Positions 264 to 10,584 of a stretch of DNA of 64,000 nt are shown piece after piece. Source of the DNA: an uncultured Dokdonia sp. (GTDB lineage Bacteria > Bacteroidota > Bacteroidia > Flavobacteriales > Flavobacteriaceae). How positions within the stretch are numbered: the first letter of the stretch is position 1; each line of letters starts with the position of its first letter. Below the pieces are notes generated by a model. The model did not search any database and had not been told where the DNA came from. It saw only the letters and a program-made list of their open reading frames with translations. The stretch spans positions 62,001 to 126,000 of the forward strand of contig CANNDF010000005.1 of the NCBI GenBank assembly GCA_947503305.1, read 5' to 3'. The position numbers were made by a program, and so were the translations under genes.

Positions 264-836
264 ATGAAAGAAGCATTCCGAAAAAAAATAGAGAGACGAG
301 TACGTATTACAGATGAGATATGGAGTGATATAGAAAAAGACTGTAGCGTCATGTATCTCAAAAAGAAAGATGTCTTAATTAATTATTCAGATATTGATAA
401 GAATCTATATTTTATTAATTCAGGAAGTTTTGAAATGTCATTAGTATCTGGAAATGGGGATTCAAAAACGGTTTGGTTTTTTTTGGATACTATTTTTAAT
501 ATGGTAGGAGTAATGGATAGTATAATGTTCAACGAGCCTACAAAATATGAGATAACAGCTTTGGAGGATGCTACAGTTATTAAGTTTAATTTCTATACTG
601 GAGAATCATGGATGGAAAAATACCCGCAATTAAGTGAATTTGCTAGAAAAGATATCTTACACGATTTTATAGAATCTAGCGAAATAAGACATCATATGAC
701 GTCACATTCTCCTCATCAATTTATTGAATATTTAAAACATAAATACCCGGAAATATTAGAAAGAATACCCGCTAAAAATATTGCAGGATTTATGGGAATT
801 ACACCAGAATGGTTTTCTAAGATTAAAAATAAATAA
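264..836 (+). CDS. Crp/Fnr family transcriptional regulator
   Basis: A 190-aa cytoplasmic protein. Residues about 25-125 look like a cNMP-binding beta-roll (ends in an ALEDATVIKF strand), followed by a connecting helix and a C-terminal helix-turn-helix (KNIAGFMGITPEWFSKIK). This is the layout of Bacteroidota Crp/Fnr-like regulators, which usually lack the arginine/glutamate pair needed to bind cAMP, and no such phosphate-binding cassette is evident here. It is paired with a truncated paralog upstream. A strong palindromic terminator at 942-989 separates it from the PycTM-like gene, so joint transcription is doubtful. Ligand and regulon are unknown. Confidence 0.75.
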   Translation: MKEAFRKKIERRVRITDEIWSDIEKDCSVMYLKKKDVLINYSDIDKNLYFINSGSFEMSLVSGNGDSKTVWFFLDTIFNMVGVMDSIMFNEPTKYEITALEDATVIKFNFYTGESWMEKYPQLSEFARKDILHDFIESSEIRHHMTSHSPHQFIEYLKHKYPEILERIPAKNIAGFMGITPEWFSKIKNK

Positions 837-1755: not shown

Positions 1756-2874
1756 ATGAAAAGCCAACTCATATACGGTCTCTTACTTTTAATTATAAGT
1801 GGATGTGCGACTAAACAACTACGGGTAGATAAGGGTCTCAAAAAAAAGTCTGTTATTAAGAATCAAATTGAACACTCCTTTTTCTTAATAGGGAATACTG
1901 CTGGGGATACAGATGTATTAAATCACTTAGAACAAGAAATACGATCTACAAATGATAACTCAACAGTACTATTTTTGGGAAACAATAGAAATAACACCAA
2001 AGATCTCAAAAATGAAACCCTTTTAAAAACACAACTCAATGCCTTAAAAAATTATAATGGAGAAACGATTTTTATCCCTGGAAGTTATGAATGGAGTAAG
2101 GGAGTTAAATCGTTAAAAAAGTACCAAGAAGAGGTTCAAAAAAAGCTCAGTAAGCAATCTTTTGCACCTAAAAATGGATGTCCCATTAAAGATCTAAAAA
2201 TAGGTGATGATATTACACTTATTATAATAGATAGTCAGTGGTACATCAGTAACTGGGATAATCACCCGACTATAAATGATAATTGTGATATTAAAACGAG
2301 AGCCGATTTTCTAAATGAATTTGGAAGTTTAGTCAAGAAATCAAGAGGAAGAACGACTATCGTTGCCTTATACCATCCGTTATATACAAATGGTACGTAT
2401 GGAGGACAATATTCTTTAGGGAGTCATATGAGTCCGCTTCCGATTTTGGGAACTATTAAAAATGTCATTCGTAAAACAAGTGGAATACACGCTGGAGATT
2501 TACAATATAAACGTTATCGTGAGTTAAAGAATCGTATTTCAACCTTAGCGCAAGAAAACAAAAAAGTAGTTCTCGTTTCTGGACATGAGCATAATTTACA
2601 ATATCTAATAGAAGATAATATTCCACAAATTATAAGTGGATCAGGCTCTAAAACTACCTCTACACGAAAAATAGGAAATAGTCAGTTTGCATATGCCTCT
2701 CAGGGTTTTGCGAGATTAGATGTATATAAAGATGGATCTTCTCAAGTTCAATTTTATACCTCTATTGGAGGTGGTTTTTTTATGAATATGGCAAATATAA
2801 TTACAGCAAATATCTCTGCATTTAATAGTGATAATAATCTAAGACTTGCCTTTAAACTTGGTTTTGGATTTTAA
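1756..2874 (+). CDS. Metallophosphoesterase-like lipoprotein with degenerate active site
   Basis: A 372-aa lipoprotein (signal ending LLLIISGCATK). Residues about 40-335 follow the flavobacterial calcineurin-like phosphoesterase pattern (CPIKDLKIGDDITLIIIDSQ, ALYHPLYTNGTYGGQYS, VLVSGHEHNLQY, IISGSGSKT). The N-terminal metal-ligand motifs are altered, however: the expected GDxG reads GNTAG, GDN reads GNN, and GNHDW reads GSYEW. Only the later His motifs are intact, so it is probably catalytically weak or dead. Longer family members continue into an outer-membrane barrel. This one ends soon after the phosphoesterase domain. It is coupled to the PycTM-like gene, and its role is unknown. Confidence 0.75.
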   Translation: MKSQLIYGLLLLIISGCATKQLRVDKGLKKKSVIKNQIEHSFFLIGNTAGDTDVLNHLEQEIRSTNDNSTVLFLGNNRNNTKDLKNETLLKTQLNALKNYNGETIFIPGSYEWSKGVKSLKKYQEEVQKKLSKQSFAPKNGCPIKDLKIGDDITLIIIDSQWYISNWDNHPTINDNCDIKTRADFLNEFGSLVKKSRGRTTIVALYHPLYTNGTYGGQYSLGSHMSPLPILGTIKNVIRKTSGIHAGDLQYKRYRELKNRISTLAQENKKVVLVSGHEHNLQYLIEDNIPQIISGSGSKTTSTRKIGNSQFAYASQGFARLDVYKDGSSQVQFYTSIGGGFFMNMANIITANISAFNSDNNLRLAFKLGFGF

Positions 2875-2949: not shown

Positions 2950-5292
2950 ATGAAAAAACAACTTTTGACATTTCTTTTTTTAGGGTTTACTATCATAGTA
3001 TCTGCACAAAAAAAATCCTATACTATTGGTGTACTTCTGGATAATAGATCTGAAGAGGTAGAACCTATCAGATTAAGGCTTGAGGAGCAAATCAAAGCTG
3101 TTGTAGGTGAGGATGCAGATATCCGATTTCCAGAAGAATACATATTGGTAAATGAGTACGCTTTCGCGAAAGCGGAAGAAAATTACAACCAGTTATTATC
3201 AAATGACACAGATATTATACTAGCATTTGGTACCATAAACAATTTGCTCATTAGTAAACAAGACAGTTATCCTAAACCTACAATCCTATTTGGAAATATC
3301 AATCAAGATCTTGTAGATGTAGATCTAACCAAAACATCATCAGGCATTTCTAATTTTACATACCTTATTGATTCACAATCCTATAATGAAGATTTAAAAA
3401 AATTTAAAGAACTTACTAATTTTAAAAATATAGGTATCATTATAGAAGAAGAGATAGTAAATGTTCTTCCTATAAAAGAAACTTTCCAAAAAGAATTAAA
3501 CGCATTAGACGCTTCCTATAAATTGATTCCGTATACATCGGTTCAAGATATTATTTCAAATCTATCTGGAGTAGATGCCATTTATATTGCAGGAGGTTTT
3601 TTTCTAAATGAAAATGAAATACAACAACTCGCTACAGTATTTATTGAGGAAAAGATACCAGCTTTTACCTCTACCAATAAGGAAGATGTCATTAGTGGAT
3701 TATTTGCTACAAATCAAGATAAAAATAATCTAGAACAACTTTTAAGACGTATCGCCCTCGATATAGAAGCATATGTCAATGGAAATGATCTAGCCACACT
3801 CCCTATTTATATAGAAAACAACACACGATTAACTATAAACTACAATACCGCAGAGTTAATAGGAGTCCCTATAAAATATAGCCTTATTAATGACACAGAC
3901 TTTGTAGGCGAGTTCAAAAACTCCTTATCTGAAAAAAAATATAATCTCATCAACGCTATTAATCAAGCATTAGATAAAAATCTATCCCTTGCTTCAGACA
4001 GAAAAGATATTGAGTTAAGTGCTCAGGATGTAAAAATTGCAAAAAGCAATTATCTCCCTACCCTTACTGCCTCTGCAAATGGCACCTATGTAGATCCCGA
4101 TCAGGCCGAAATTAGTTTTGGACAAAGTCCAGAATTCTCAACAAGCGGTGACATTACTCTAGAACAAACGCTTTTCTCGGCAGCAGCAAACGCAAATATA
4201 ACAATAGAGAAAAAGCTCTTAAAAGCACAGGAAGAAACTTTTAACACCAATCAATTAGATGTCATTTTTGATGTAGCAAACACCTACTTCACAACCTTAA
4301 TCCTTAAAGCAAATGCGCAAATAGAATTAAGTAATCTAGATCTCACAAAAGAAAACCTTCAAATAGCTGAACGAAATTTTGAAGCTGGTGAAGAAGGAAA
4401 ATCCGATGTATTACGTTTTACTAGTGAGATGGCTCAAAATACTCAAAGTATGGTAGAAGCTATAAACAATCTGGAACAAGGGTTTGTTAATCTCAATCAA
4501 ATACTAAATAACCCAGTAAATAAAGAAATTGATGTTGAAGATGTAGAACTAGATAAAGGAATCTTAGAACAATATAATTATAATGAAATTACTGAACTTC
4601 TTGATAACCCTACTTTAAGAGAGTCTTTTATTGAGTTTCTTATTCAAGAAGCATTACAAAATTCCCCAGAATTAAAAAATCTGGACTATAACTTAGAAGC
4701 AACCGAACGATCAGTTAAATTATATGGAACAGAGCGGTTTTTACCAACACTAGCATTACAAGGACAGTATAATAATACTTTTAGTAGAAGCGGTGCTGGA
4801 AGTACAGCTCAAGAAGGGTTTTCCCTTGTTGATAATAGCTACAATGTAGGAGTAAATATATCAATCCCCATCTTCAATCAAAATACAAATACCATCAATA
4901 AACAAACAGCTATTATTCAAAAAGATCAACTTCTAATTACTAAAGAAAATAATGAGCTAGCCATTGCTGCAAACATAAGAAATAGCGTGCTCACTCTAAT
5001 TAATCAAGTATCTAATATAGCATTGTCCAACGTATCTGAAAGTGCTGCTAAGGAATCTTTACTATTAACTCAAACAGCTTATGCAACCGGCTCTGTAAGT
5101 ATTATAGAACTTATTGATTCTCAAAACAACTACTTAAGTGCACAGCTATCTCGAACCAATGCAGTCTATAATTACCTAATTAATGCACTACAGTTAGAGC
5201 GTAATTTGGGGTATTACTTTTTACTGAATTCACCTGAGGATAATACAAAATTCAGACAACGCTTTTTAGAATTTACAACTAACAAAAATTAA
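2950..5292 (+). CDS. ABC-type substrate-binding domain fused to TolC-family outer-membrane efflux protein
   Basis: A 780-aa exported protein with signal peptide (FLFLGFTIIVSAQ). Residues about 24-300 resemble periplasmic ABC substrate-binding proteins of the two-lobed type (KKSYTIGVLLDNRSEE start, later DAIYIAGGFFLNE and VISGLFATNQD). Residues about 325-765 are a TolC-type outer-membrane factor with two long helical repeats (NAINQALDKNLSL..., FLIQEALQNSPELKNLDYNL). TolC proteins are usually 420-500 aa, so the fusion is large. It is first in an operon with a membrane-fusion protein and RND pump (26 and 48 bp gaps). The CGCTTTCGCGAAAGCG palindrome is embedded near residue 70 as AFAKA. Confidence 0.85.
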   Translation: MKKQLLTFLFLGFTIIVSAQKKSYTIGVLLDNRSEEVEPIRLRLEEQIKAVVGEDADIRFPEEYILVNEYAFAKAEENYNQLLSNDTDIILAFGTINNLLISKQDSYPKPTILFGNINQDLVDVDLTKTSSGISNFTYLIDSQSYNEDLKKFKELTNFKNIGIIIEEEIVNVLPIKETFQKELNALDASYKLIPYTSVQDIISNLSGVDAIYIAGGFFLNENEIQQLATVFIEEKIPAFTSTNKEDVISGLFATNQDKNNLEQLLRRIALDIEAYVNGNDLATLPIYIENNTRLTINYNTAELIGVPIKYSLINDTDFVGEFKNSLSEKKYNLINAINQALDKNLSLASDRKDIELSAQDVKIAKSNYLPTLTASANGTYVDPDQAEISFGQSPEFSTSGDITLEQTLFSAAANANITIEKKLLKAQEETFNTNQLDVIFDVANTYFTTLILKANAQIELSNLDLTKENLQIAERNFEAGEEGKSDVLRFTSEMAQNTQSMVEAINNLEQGFVNLNQILNNPVNKEIDVEDVELDKGILEQYNYNEITELLDNPTLRESFIEFLIQEALQNSPELKNLDYNLEATERSVKLYGTERFLPTLALQGQYNNTFSRSGAGSTAQEGFSLVDNSYNVGVNISIPIFNQNTNTINKQTAIIQKDQLLITKENNELAIAANIRNSVLTLINQVSNIALSNVSESAAKESLLLTQTAYATGSVSIIELIDSQNNYLSAQLSRTNAVYNYLINALQLERNLGYYFLLNSPEDNTKFRQRFLEFTTNKN
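3159..3174. repeat. Dispersed palindrome CGCTTTCGCGAAAGCG
   Basis: Exact 16-bp palindrome inside the TolC fusion gene, read as AFAKA in frame. It is one member of the family discussed in the findings. Confidence 0.9.
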
Positions 5293-5318: not shown

Positions 5319-6404
5319 ATGAAACAACTAAGAATCATATTAACACTATTGATGACAGTAAGTTTATTTAGTTCTTGTTCTAAAGAAAAAAAGAAAGAAG
5401 AAGTATTCCTACGCCCAGTTAAGTATACAGAAGTAGACTATTTAGGAGGTGGAAAAATAAGAACATTTAGTGGAACCGCAGAGATAGATAAGATTATTAA
5501 ACTAAGCTTCAGGAATTCTGGTATCATCGTTCAATTTGATGTCAAGTTAGGACAGATTGTTAAGAAAGGGCAATTGCTTGCAAAACTAGATAATGTCTCT
5601 TCTAGACTATCTTATGAACAAGCAATCACAGATTTAAACAGTACAGAATCTCAGATGAATACTGCAAAATTAAGCCTTAACAGGGTACGATCTCTTTATG
5701 AAAAAGGAAGTTCATCTCTTAGTGATTTTGAATCGGCAAAAAACGCATTTAAAACCGCCCAAGAAAGCTATCAGTCTGCTAAGCGTGGGGTTGAAATCCA
5801 ACGAGAACAAATTCAATATGGGTATATATATGCACCAGAAGATGGTGTTATCGCAGCAGTATCATCAGAAATTGATGAGAATGTTAGTGCGGGTCAAACC
5901 GTCGCTACTCTTAACTCAGGAACAGATATGGAAATTGCCCTAGGAATACCAGAAAGTGTGATTAATGGTGTTAAAAATTCAATGATAGTTGATGTAGATT
6001 TCACCTCTCTGGATAATCAAAAATTCAAAGCAAAAGTAACAGAAGTATCTCCTGCTGTAGATTCAAATACCGCTACATACCCTGTACGCATTACCCTTAT
6101 AGAACCTAGCGATGCTATCAAAAGTGGAATGGCAGCAAATGTAACTTTTGATTTTGGTTCTGACCAAGAAATAAAAACCAAAACGTTAGTAGTTCCCGCA
6201 CATGCTGTAGGAGAAGATAGTAATGGCCGTTTTGTCTTTTTAATTAAAGAAGAAGGTGATACTGTTATTATTAAAAAACACAGTATTACAATAGGTCCAT
6301 TAAGTGCAGAAGGATTTGAGGTTATTTCTGGGCTCAGTAAAGGCCAAAAAATTGCAACTGCTGGATTACAAACCCTATTAGACGGTCAGCAAGTAAAATT
6401 GTAA
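5319..6404 (+). CDS. RND efflux periplasmic adaptor (membrane-fusion) lipoprotein
   Basis: A 361-aa lipoprotein (MTVSLFSSCSKEK). It shows the order typical of HlyD/AcrA-type adaptors: a first beta strand and lipoyl half (VKLGQIVKKGQLLAKLDN), a coiled-coil hairpin at about 100-165, a second lipoyl half (YIYAPEDGVIAAVSSEIDEN), a beta-barrel and a membrane-proximal domain (ISGLSKGQKIATAGLQTLLDG). It would bridge the downstream RND permease and the TolC-type protein encoded upstream. Length is normal for the family. Substrate unknown. Confidence 0.92.
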   Translation: MKQLRIILTLLMTVSLFSSCSKEKKKEEVFLRPVKYTEVDYLGGGKIRTFSGTAEIDKIIKLSFRNSGIIVQFDVKLGQIVKKGQLLAKLDNVSSRLSYEQAITDLNSTESQMNTAKLSLNRVRSLYEKGSSSLSDFESAKNAFKTAQESYQSAKRGVEIQREQIQYGYIYAPEDGVIAAVSSEIDENVSAGQTVATLNSGTDMEIALGIPESVINGVKNSMIVDVDFTSLDNQKFKAKVTEVSPAVDSNTATYPVRITLIEPSDAIKSGMAANVTFDFGSDQEIKTKTLVVPAHAVGEDSNGRFVFLIKEEGDTVIIKKHSITIGPLSAEGFEVISGLSKGQKIATAGLQTLLDGQQVKL

Positions 6405-6452: not shown

Positions 6453-9400
6453 ATGAATTTAGCAAAATTCTCAATAGAAAAAAATAGGATTACTTTTATG
6501 GTATTAGGTACCATCATTCTTTTAGGAATTTCTATGTACCTCAATCTTTCCAGAGATAGTATGCCTCCTTATACAGTTAGAGTCGCAACAGTTGTTTCTC
6601 AATTCCCTGGAGCGAGCCCCGAACGCGTAGAACAACTCGTCACAGATAAAGTAGAAAAAAAAGCGCAAGAACTTCCAGAGCTCGATGAAGTTACGAGTAC
6701 TTCAAGAACAGGATTATCTATTGTAAGTGTCATATTAAAAGATGAAGTAAGACAGGAAGATATGCAAGCTGTATGGGATCGATTACGTAGAAAGTTAAAT
6801 GTAATCGAAGGGTTGCCAGAGGGTGTTACTCCTGCTTTGGATGATGACGGCGTAGGTGATGTATATGGAATTGTAGTAGGACTTACTTCAGATGGTTTTT
6901 CTTATGCAGAAATGAAAGAATATGCCGATGATATAAAAGATGATCTCATTAAGCTTCCGGATGCTGCAAAAGTAGAGTTAGGTGGCGTACAAGATGAGCG
7001 TGTATTTGTTGAGTTTGATAATACAAGATTAAAGGAATACGGACTGTCTGCATCTAAATTACAGCAAATAATTTCTTCAACAAATATCCTAAACTCTGGA
7101 GGACAAATAAATGTAGGTGATGAACGTATTATACTAGAACCTACTGGAAATTTTAATACTATAGATGATATTAGAAATATGTTAATCCCTGTAGGTGATA
7201 CAGGAACTCAACTCGTCAAATTAAGTGATATTACAACCATAAAAAAAGGATATATAGATCCTTCTACTCAAATTGTCAAGGTAAATGGAATGGACGCCTT
7301 GACACTCCATGTCAATCTTAAAAAAAATCAAAACGTAGTCGCGCTAGGCTTAGAAGTAGATGCTATTGTAAATGAATGGCGTAAACGTCTTCCTGTAGGT
7401 CTAGAGTTGACAAGGGTCTCCTCTATTGATGAATATATTGATGTAAAAATAAGTGATTTTATGGTCAATTTGGTGCAATCTATTACGATTGTACTTCTAG
7501 TAATGCTAGTCTTCTTAGGGATACGTACAGGCTTTATTATCGCAAGTTTAATCCCCATTGTAACTATTACGACTTTAATGGTCATGGGAGTTCTAGATAT
7601 AGGGCTAAATCAGGTAACTCTTGCTGCTTTAATAATGGCCTTAGGAATGCTGGTTGATAATGCTATTGTAGTTGCAGAAACAATTATGGTAAAATTAGAA
7701 CAAGGTATTGAAAAAAAGAAAGCAGCTATAGATGCATTTTCAGAATTATGGATGCCATTATTAATCTCTACCCTTACTACATCTGCGGCATTTCTTGCAT
7801 TCTATTTATCACCTACTACGATGGGTGATATCGTAGGTCCTATTTTTGTTGTAATTACAATAGCATTATCATCTTCATGGCTTATCGCGCTTACAGTTAT
7901 CACGATGTTCTGTTATTTATTTCTAAAAATAAAACCAAAAGGAGAAGTAAAGCCTAGTCTGATTGATCGTATCATTAATACAATGAAAAACTATTACAAA
8001 GGACTTATTCTTGTTTCTTTACGCCATAAATGGAAAGTAACAATAGGCATCTTTATAGCATTTTTTATATCCTTATATGGATTTGGGTACATTCCATTTA
8101 TCTTCTTTCCTGATAGCGATCGAAACTTAATTACACTGGATGTTAATATGCCAGAAGGCACAAAAATAGAAAGTACAGCATTAGTCATTAAAGGAATAGA
8201 ACAGTATATCCAAGATTCTTTAAAAGTATCTCAACAACGTACTAAAGGGATTAAAAGCTGGTCATCATATGTAGGAGAAGGGCCGGAATCTTATGACTTA
8301 GGTTATGACCCAGATGAAGCAAATGCTAACTATGCACATATGCTCATTAATACCTCTACGTTTAATGAAAACAATGCTATGATTGCAAAACTAGATAAGT
8401 TTACATATAATAACTTCCCTAATGCCGATATCAAAGTATATGCCCTCGCAGCTGGAGAAGCAGGTGCACCTATAGAAGTAAAAGTATCAGGTACAAATCC
8501 AGATGAACTCTCAAAAATTTCGGAAATAATTAAGTTAAAACTATCTAGTATAACTGGTACTAAAAATGTAAAAGATGATTGGGGACCAAAAAGTAAAAAA
8601 TTCTTAATTAATATAGATCAAAATAGAGCTCAAAAAGCCGGAGTAACAAGTCAAGATATTGCTACTTCTTTATTAACAGTACTAGATGGTTATGAGACTG
8701 GAAGTTATAGAGAAGAAGATAAGTCTATTCCGATAATAATGAGAAATGATGTTGATCAACAACAAACATTAGCCTCTCTAGAAACACTCAATGTGTATTC
8801 CCAATCTTCGGGAAATAGCGTGCCTTTATTGCAAGTAGCTGCCATAATCCCATCGTGGCAATATGCAAAAATAAAACGATTAGATATCATTAGAACTATT
8901 AATATTAGTTGTGAATTACGTGAAGGGGCTAATGCATCATTTATTACAGCAGAACTAACACCTTGGGTAGAAGAAGAGGCAAAAAGTTGGCCAGATCGTT
9001 ATTCATATGAGTTTGGAGGGGATGCAGAACGAACCGCGACGAGTATGGGCTCTATCATTGGTTATTTACCTGTATCTGGATTTATAATTGTTTTATTATT
9101 AATTATTCAATTCAATTCTTTTCGTAAAATGGTTATGGTCGTATTAACCATCCCGTTAGCTATTATTGGAGTAGTTATAGGGTTACTAATCTTTCAGGAA
9201 AATTTTGGGTTTATGCCTTTCTTAGGTGTTATCTCGCTGGCTGGGATCGTAATTAATAATGCTATTGTACTTGTAGATCGCATGGAAGTAGAGCAAAAAG
9301 ACCTAGGAAGACAAGAGCAGGATGCTGTTATCACAGCGTGCTTACAACGCTTTAGACCTATATTGCTAGCCACCTTTACAACAGTCTTGGGATTAATTCC

Positions 9401-9569
9401 ATTATATCTTAGTGGTGGAGAGTTATGGGAAGGAATGGCAGTAAGTATTATGATAGGGCTTCTATTTGGGACAATCATCACACTTATATTTATTCCTTCA
9501 TTATATAGTATTTTATTTAAACTTAACTATAAGAAATACTCATTTGATGAAAAGCTATTGGAAAACTAA
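6453..9569 (+). CDS. RND family efflux permease
   Basis: A 1038-aa inner-membrane proton-driven pump with two homologous halves, each one transmembrane helix, a large periplasmic domain and a block of further helices. The start is typical (NLAKFSIEKNRITFMVLGTI), and QFPGASPERVEQLVTDKVE is the usual pore-domain entry. The TM4 motif reads LGMLVDNAIVVAE, so the second aspartate of the classical DD pair is Asn. The second half carries GVVINNAIV-type sequence (GIVINNAIVLVDRMEVEQ). It is encoded after the adaptor and TolC fusion, giving a complete tripartite pump. Substrate cannot be deduced. Confidence 0.92.
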   Translation: MNLAKFSIEKNRITFMVLGTIILLGISMYLNLSRDSMPPYTVRVATVVSQFPGASPERVEQLVTDKVEKKAQELPELDEVTSTSRTGLSIVSVILKDEVRQEDMQAVWDRLRRKLNVIEGLPEGVTPALDDDGVGDVYGIVVGLTSDGFSYAEMKEYADDIKDDLIKLPDAAKVELGGVQDERVFVEFDNTRLKEYGLSASKLQQIISSTNILNSGGQINVGDERIILEPTGNFNTIDDIRNMLIPVGDTGTQLVKLSDITTIKKGYIDPSTQIVKVNGMDALTLHVNLKKNQNVVALGLEVDAIVNEWRKRLPVGLELTRVSSIDEYIDVKISDFMVNLVQSITIVLLVMLVFLGIRTGFIIASLIPIVTITTLMVMGVLDIGLNQVTLAALIMALGMLVDNAIVVAETIMVKLEQGIEKKKAAIDAFSELWMPLLISTLTTSAAFLAFYLSPTTMGDIVGPIFVVITIALSSSWLIALTVITMFCYLFLKIKPKGEVKPSLIDRIINTMKNYYKGLILVSLRHKWKVTIGIFIAFFISLYGFGYIPFIFFPDSDRNLITLDVNMPEGTKIESTALVIKGIEQYIQDSLKVSQQRTKGIKSWSSYVGEGPESYDLGYDPDEANANYAHMLINTSTFNENNAMIAKLDKFTYNNFPNADIKVYALAAGEAGAPIEVKVSGTNPDELSKISEIIKLKLSSITGTKNVKDDWGPKSKKFLINIDQNRAQKAGVTSQDIATSLLTVLDGYETGSYREEDKSIPIIMRNDVDQQQTLASLETLNVYSQSSGNSVPLLQVAAIIPSWQYAKIKRLDIIRTINISCELREGANASFITAELTPWVEEEAKSWPDRYSYEFGGDAERTATSMGSIIGYLPVSGFIIVLLLIIQFNSFRKMVMVVLTIPLAIIGVVIGLLIFQENFGFMPFLGVISLAGIVINNAIVLVDRMEVEQKDLGRQEQDAVITACLQRFRPILLATFTTVLGLIPLYLSGGELWEGMAVSIMIGLLFGTIITLIFIPSLYSILFKLNYKKYSFDEKLLEN

Positions 9570-9909: not shown

Positions 9910-10584
9910 ATGTTTCATACTATCTACAAAAATCGTTTTGAAATTTTCTTACTATCTCAATTATCTATATTATTTGGTTCCCTCCTATTCCCTCATGATT
10001 TCTTTGAATATACATTGCAACCCATTTTATTTATGATAAACATTGTTGCTGGTATTCTTTTGATATCCAAGAAAAAGAAAACAATGTGGTTTTTTATCAT
10101 CCTTTTTGGGATATCAGCAGTCATATTTGGTTCGAGCATGATCCAAAGATCTGAAGACAGCGATACGATCCTATTGCGATTATCCATTTACTTTTTATTT
10201 CACATTATTGTAGCTTTTAATATTATACAGCAAGTCTGGAAAGCAAGTTTTGTAAATAAAAATGTGGTCATAGGTTTGATGAGTGGATACATTTCTCTTG
10301 GTTTCCTAGCTTTCTTTTTATTTATGTCTATAGAACTCACAAACCCTGGCGCTTTTCAGGGAGTTTTAATGGACAACAACAATTTTGAATTACGAGCAGA
10401 TGCTATTATGTATTATTCATACATCACTTTACTGACCATAGGGTATGGTGAAATAGTTCCCTCAATTCCTATTGCTCAAAAAGCTGCAATTCTTGTAGGA
10501 CTGGTGGGCCAATTTTATATGGTTATTATTACTGCTGTAGTTATAGAAAAGTATATTCTTCACTCTAAGAATGCTACAAAGTAA
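9910..10584 (+). CDS. Potassium-channel-like (Ion_trans_2) membrane protein
   Basis: A 224-aa membrane protein with about six hydrophobic segments. Between the last two is a pore loop with the selectivity-filter signature LLTIGYGEIVP (TxGYGE class), followed by the inner pore helix (AAILVGLVGQFYMVIITAVV). The first four helices have no regular Arg/Lys repeat, so voltage sensing is doubtful, and no RCK/TrkA ligand domain follows. A tetrameric K+ channel is the likely function. It is a stand-alone gene in a gap of weak context. Confidence 0.8.
   Translation: MFHTIYKNRFEIFLLSQLSILFGSLLFPHDFFEYTLQPILFMINIVAGILLISKKKKTMWFFIILFGISAVIFGSSMIQRSEDSDTILLRLSIYFLFHIIVAFNIIQQVWKASFVNKNVVIGLMSGYISLGFLAFFLFMSIELTNPGAFQGVLMDNNNFELRADAIMYYSYITLLTIGYGEIVPSIPIAQKAAILVGLVGQFYMVIITAVVIEKYILHSKNATK

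Follow-up and report, generated by a model that had tools for sequence, protein, structure and literature searches.

A periplasmic binding-protein domain fused to a TolC-type outer membrane factor in a Dokdonia efflux operon

Outer membrane factors (OMFs) are generally portrayed as passive ducts that are opened by adaptors. Helix H1 of these proteins lies in the equatorial domain (PMC8277102), and the lipoprotein YbjP binds the equatorial region of E. coli TolC (PMC13082787). The other described proteins that bear on the present locus are binding proteins for aromatic amino acids, with 3LKV, 3LFT and 6HNI being phenylalanine-, tryptophan- and tyrosine-binding proteins, respectively (PMC6816091). 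In TrpX, the ligand contacts are T108, A127, T129, D152 and N233 (PMC9382623).

Here we describe a gene that joins a domain of the second kind to a channel of the first kind. The gene lies in a stretch of 64,000 nucleotides from an uncultured Dokdonia sp., and the whole of this stretch is referred to as the window. Both domains are already known. The names that public annotation gives to their combination are 'TolC family protein' and 'ABC transporter substrate binding protein', and no others. No description of the fusion was found in the literature searched, which yielded only the YbjP paper and a general review, with subscription journals and domain-architecture databases lying outside that search.

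Architecture of the fused protein

The fused gene occupies positions 2950-5292 of the plus strand as one open frame of 780 aa, with an ATG start, a single stop and no internal stop. The protein begins with a type I signal peptide, MKKQLLTFLFLGFTIIVSAQ (residues ~1-20; 2950..3009, +), which AlphaFold2 models as a helix over residues 2-16 and which has no lipobox cysteine. It is followed by a two-lobed type I periplasmic binding-protein domain of the TrpX/ABC_sub_bind fold, assigned by profile and fold matches (residues ~22-320; 3013..3909, +), and by a TolC-type outer membrane factor (residues 329-780; 3934..5289, +). In the latter the Pfam OEP match spans residues 336-754 with an E-value of 2.2e-52, and is made up of repeat 1 at residues 336-520 (3955..4509, +) and repeat 2 at residues 562-754 (4633..5211, +). 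TIGR01844 matches the channel half at 4.2e-39, short of its curated cut-off, and Foldseek aligns this half of the AlphaFold2 model to TolC (1EK9) with a TM-score of 0.77 by target. The C-terminal half is thereby confirmed as a complete TolC-type OMF with two OEP repeats. The pLDDT is 86.6 for the whole fused protein and 89.4 for the N-terminal domain. The model is that of a monomer, and a trimeric outer-membrane channel is predicted from the OMF family.

The first-pass annotation had placed a binding-protein fold ahead of a TolC channel encoded with an RND pump. Searching with this one protein sequence did not recover the fold: residues 24-320 give no Pfam match at a threshold as loose as E=1, the window protein fails the Pfam gathering score for PF04392, and this family has no match anywhere in the window's genome. 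Taken by itself, this result would have refuted the annotation on its own terms. Since no single-sequence Pfam match was available for the N-terminal domain, a profile of its relatives was used instead, and with it the assignment held. PF04392 (ABC_sub_bind) is matched by 11 of the 28 homologous N-terminal domains (best 3.9e-11), and the fused protein of Sulfuricurvum reaches 38.6 bits, above the Pfam cut-off. The profile built from the 28 homologues retrieves 3LKV (2.2e-12), 3LFT (8.3e-8) and 6HNI (2.5e-5) from the PDB, and a profile-profile comparison to 19 free-standing Bacteroidota substrate-binding proteins gives an E-value of 2.4e-14 over 274 columns. Foldseek, given the AlphaFold2 model of the domain, matches TrpX, VC_1101 and CD0873 across the whole domain with TM-scores of about 0.70-0.75 by target, and the model gives the window protein two intact lobes and an intact hinge. 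The domain is thus confirmed as a two-lobed type I periplasmic binding-protein fold of the ABC_sub_bind/TrpX family, and with the neighbouring genes described below the annotated arrangement stands. Its periplasmic location, also proposed earlier, agrees with these data: the domain must be periplasmic, given the type I signal peptide ahead of it and an OMF N-terminus that is at the equatorial domain.

Spread of the fusion and its gene neighbourhood

We compared 43 full-length fused homologues, which come from Bacteroidota, Fusobacteriota and Campylobacterota. The copies from outside Bacteroidota were taken from plasmid records of Sulfuricurvum kujiense (Campylobacterota) and Cetobacterium somerae (Fusobacteriota). 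An assembly or frameshift error joining two adjacent genes was rejected as practically out of the question, as it is contradicted by these 43 full-length homologues, each in a single open frame, in three phyla.

Among Bacteroidota, the fusion is borne out by searching with each half on its own. The binding-protein half detects 14 of 297 genomes at E<=1e-3, and the TolC half, at E<=1e-25, detects the identical 14, with open frames of at least 793 aa; both halves always share one open frame. The pairing of binding-protein domain and channel is therefore that of an obligate two-domain OMF. A profile search of 396 genomes gave strong full-domain matches in 17 (E<=2.6e-49), all in frames of at least 793 aa, and the remaining matches were either weak ones to other PF04392 proteins or fragments at contig edges. 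A different architecture is seen in other Bacteroidota proteins (L033, L035, L042), whose frames of 945-1271 aa hold PF04392 domains in tandem, two or three to a protein. The distribution is patchy, since the fused gene is present in 9 of 78 close relatives of the window's genome.

In a tree of channel halves, 35 fused rows fall on one side of a branch with 100/100 support and the unfused OMFs on the other, the latter being a sample of 13, seven of which are from the window's own genome. The single fused clade takes in the Fusobacteriota and Campylobacterota copies. None of the seven further OMFs in the window's genome has such an N-terminal domain. The simplest history consistent with the tree would be a single fusion event, with vertical and probably some horizontal transmission afterwards. 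The pairing is ancient and has been kept in at least three bacterial phyla.

The fused gene is followed in the same operon by a periplasmic adaptor, or membrane fusion protein (5319..6404, +; TIGR01730 RND_mfp, 4.5e-70), and by an RND efflux permease (6453..9569, +; ACR_tran, 9.4e-160). Adaptor and RND genes adjoin the fused gene on the same strand in nearly all homologous loci. In one divergent locus (L092, genome G179), an adaptor or pump was not recognised beside the fused gene within the stretch examined. Sulfuricurvum is another exception: its fused gene is partnered by an HlyD-type adaptor and by an RbbA-like ABC transporter, together with a second ABC-2 permease. As an ABC pump is present there in place of RND, the domain goes with the channel whatever the class of pump. 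An ABC importer, that is, a permease with an ATPase, was not found beside the fused genes, whose neighbours are adaptor and RND genes or, in Sulfuricurvum, an ABC-2 type transporter with its adaptor. Further downstream lies a gene for an ion-channel-like membrane protein (9910..10584, +; Pfam Ion_trans_2, 1e-7), and in about 19 related flavobacterial loci a homologue of it comes next, or almost next, after the RND gene. That this protein is part of the pump system is suggested only by synteny.

Three other genes upstream of the fused gene were noted. A Crp/Fnr-like regulator (window 264-836) has a 61% identical relative in Kordia, just upstream of the same operon (L026:7245-7832). The product of the gene at window 1160-1753 matches PycTM, the Pycsar effector transmembrane family, in Pfam (1e-7), with a PADLOC match of only 8e-4. 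A metallophosphoesterase gene of 372 aa follows (window 1756-2874), and a relative of about 1225 aa, which has a weak ShlB-barrel match, adjoins the same operon elsewhere (L103:9774-13451). The shorter protein matches residues 19-353 and then 1170-1225 of the longer one, with the two segments overlapping at window 2704-2763, as though it had arisen from such a protein by an in-frame deletion of the interior.

Ligand site and position of the domain

By profile alignment, the residues of the window protein at the TrpX positions T108, A127, T129, D152 and N233 are T95, G115, I117, D141 and F217, respectively. According to a second alignment, made profile to profile, the free-standing Bacteroidota relatives have threonine at the T108 position in 19/19 and asparagine at the N233 position in 19/19, whereas in the fused proteins threonine is kept in 3/40 (the window protein included) and asparagine in 1/40. 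The A127, T129 and D152 positions are variable even among the 19 free-standing relatives, and the weight of the comparison therefore rests on T108 and N233. These two key residues are nearly absent across the fused family, which has thus lost the amino-acid ligand anchors of the TrpX family. The fused protein of Cetobacterium is without the stretch around residues 196-222, which holds the N233 position.

In the type I binding-protein fold, the cleft is formed by the loops that leave the strands C-terminally. Loop conservation in the fused family is 0.379 on the cleft side versus 0.497 on the opposite side, and the corresponding values for the free-standing control are 0.553 and 0.541. When loop pairs were swapped at random, the observed difference was equalled or exceeded in essentially all of 5000 draws, placing the cleft side at the low extreme in a test that sets loops by strand ends instead of measured cleft distances and ignores kinship. 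Around the five contact positions, conservation is not in excess family-wide (p~0.5) and is weakly so in the flavobacterial clade (p=0.058). Members of this clade agree in the cleft motifs AFGxxNN, FGAVN and AGGFF, and N135 and N297 are invariant in the fused domain.

The first-pass annotation had further suggested that the domain captures or senses the export substrate. The loss of the anchors, the lower conservation of the cleft loops and the missing part of the cleft in Cetobacterium speak against this suggestion, and we infer that ligand capture is probably absent. The intact lobes and the clade-consistent cleft motifs leave room for a clade-specific ligand.

As H1 lies in the equatorial domain, a domain that precedes it would be outside the duct, at the equatorial belt in the periplasm, presumably in three copies per trimer. 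This position would roughly match the YbjP site on E. coli TolC. A lipobox is found in 0/43 of the fused homologues versus 15/21 of the free-standing PF04392 relatives, from which the channel appears to have taken the place of the lipid anchor in the fused proteins.

Possible roles and comparison with known systems

The reading that we prefer over a retooled receptor or a biogenesis aid is that the domain, lying ahead of H1 and outside the channel at the periplasmic equatorial belt, would have given up its role as an amino-acid receptor. The repurposed fold would serve as a lateral periplasmic collar that helps the channel to fold, to take its position or to dock in the envelope or to the adaptor, and would stand where free-standing relatives and many OMFs bear a lipid anchor. 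To such a structural, docking or assembly role we give roughly an even chance. It is supported by the loss of the anchors, the low conservation of the cleft, the Cetobacterium gap, the retention of the domain despite a change of pump class and the absence of a lipobox from the fused proteins. The prediction that both lobes and the hinge are intact counts against it, as a pure spacer would have no need of them, and so do the consistent cleft motifs and the weak excess at the contact positions in the flavobacterial clade, which are as expected of a clade-specific ligand. The same features, that is, the complete two-lobed fold with its hinge, the motifs of the flavobacterial branch and the invariant N135 and N297, together with the efflux genes in the operon, would fit a working ligand-binding module with changed, clade-specific specificity, which binds the export substrate or a periplasmic signal and either hands it to the channel or adaptor or signals its presence to them. 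We regard such a module as a serious but less probable contender, since the canonical anchors are lost, cleft conservation is not enriched across the family, a cleft stretch is absent in Cetobacterium and the change from an RND to an ABC pump occurred without loss of the domain. More doubtful still is a reading in which the fused domain is a periplasmic receptor for a new ligand class, either the export substrate or an envelope signal, and controls whether the channel opens or the pump docks. Should the domain bind anything at all, regulation of export from the outer-membrane end would become possible; and if the receptor-gated reading were true, the exit duct would have its own periplasmic receptor, with export controlled at that end.

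The absence of a lipobox from the fused proteins, set against its frequency in the free-standing relatives, would also fit an aid to biogenesis, in which the domain holds the chain in solution on its way through the periplasm or brings in assembly factors, replacing the N-terminal lipid of lipidated OMFs, and is no longer needed after insertion of the trimer. Lipid anchors and YbjP have indeed been discussed as possible helpers of OMF biogenesis (PMC13082787). We consider this role quite improbable, as seven other OMFs in the same genome manage without the domain and E. coli TolC, though unlipidated, still arrives at the outer membrane when the strain has no YbjP (PMC13082787). A cross-phylum lineage whose duct always bears a folded periplasmic domain amounts to a natural experiment on the role of the lateral equatorial surface of OMFs, a question that the recent TolC-YbjP structures have likewise posed.

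YbjP resembles the fused domain in giving the channel an additional periplasmic domain on its lateral face, a position that is inferred for the protein described here. YbjP differs in having an unrelated fold, in being a separate lipoprotein and in its restriction to some Enterobacterales (PMC13082787, PMC13095208), whereas the present domain is part of the channel polypeptide, with a periplasmic binding-protein fold and no lipobox; the analogy is thus one of position only. OprM-type lipidated OMFs likewise have an N-terminal addition near the equatorial domain, but theirs is a lipid anchor and here it is a folded domain. With TolC-family OMFs (OEP, PF02321) the protein shares the two OEP repeats in about 450 C-terminal residues, the 1EK9 fold and an operon with adaptor and RND genes; it differs from them in the binding-protein domain of about 300 aa ahead of the channel, and forms one clade apart from the sampled unfused OMFs. 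TrpX (SP1069, 3LFT), VC_1101 (3LKV) and CD0873 (6HNI) have a fold in common with the full fused domain (TM-score ~0.7) and remote sequence similarity to it. Unlike these proteins, the domain described here is joined to a channel, has neither a lipobox nor an ABC importer, and has the anchoring threonine and asparagine of its family replaced.
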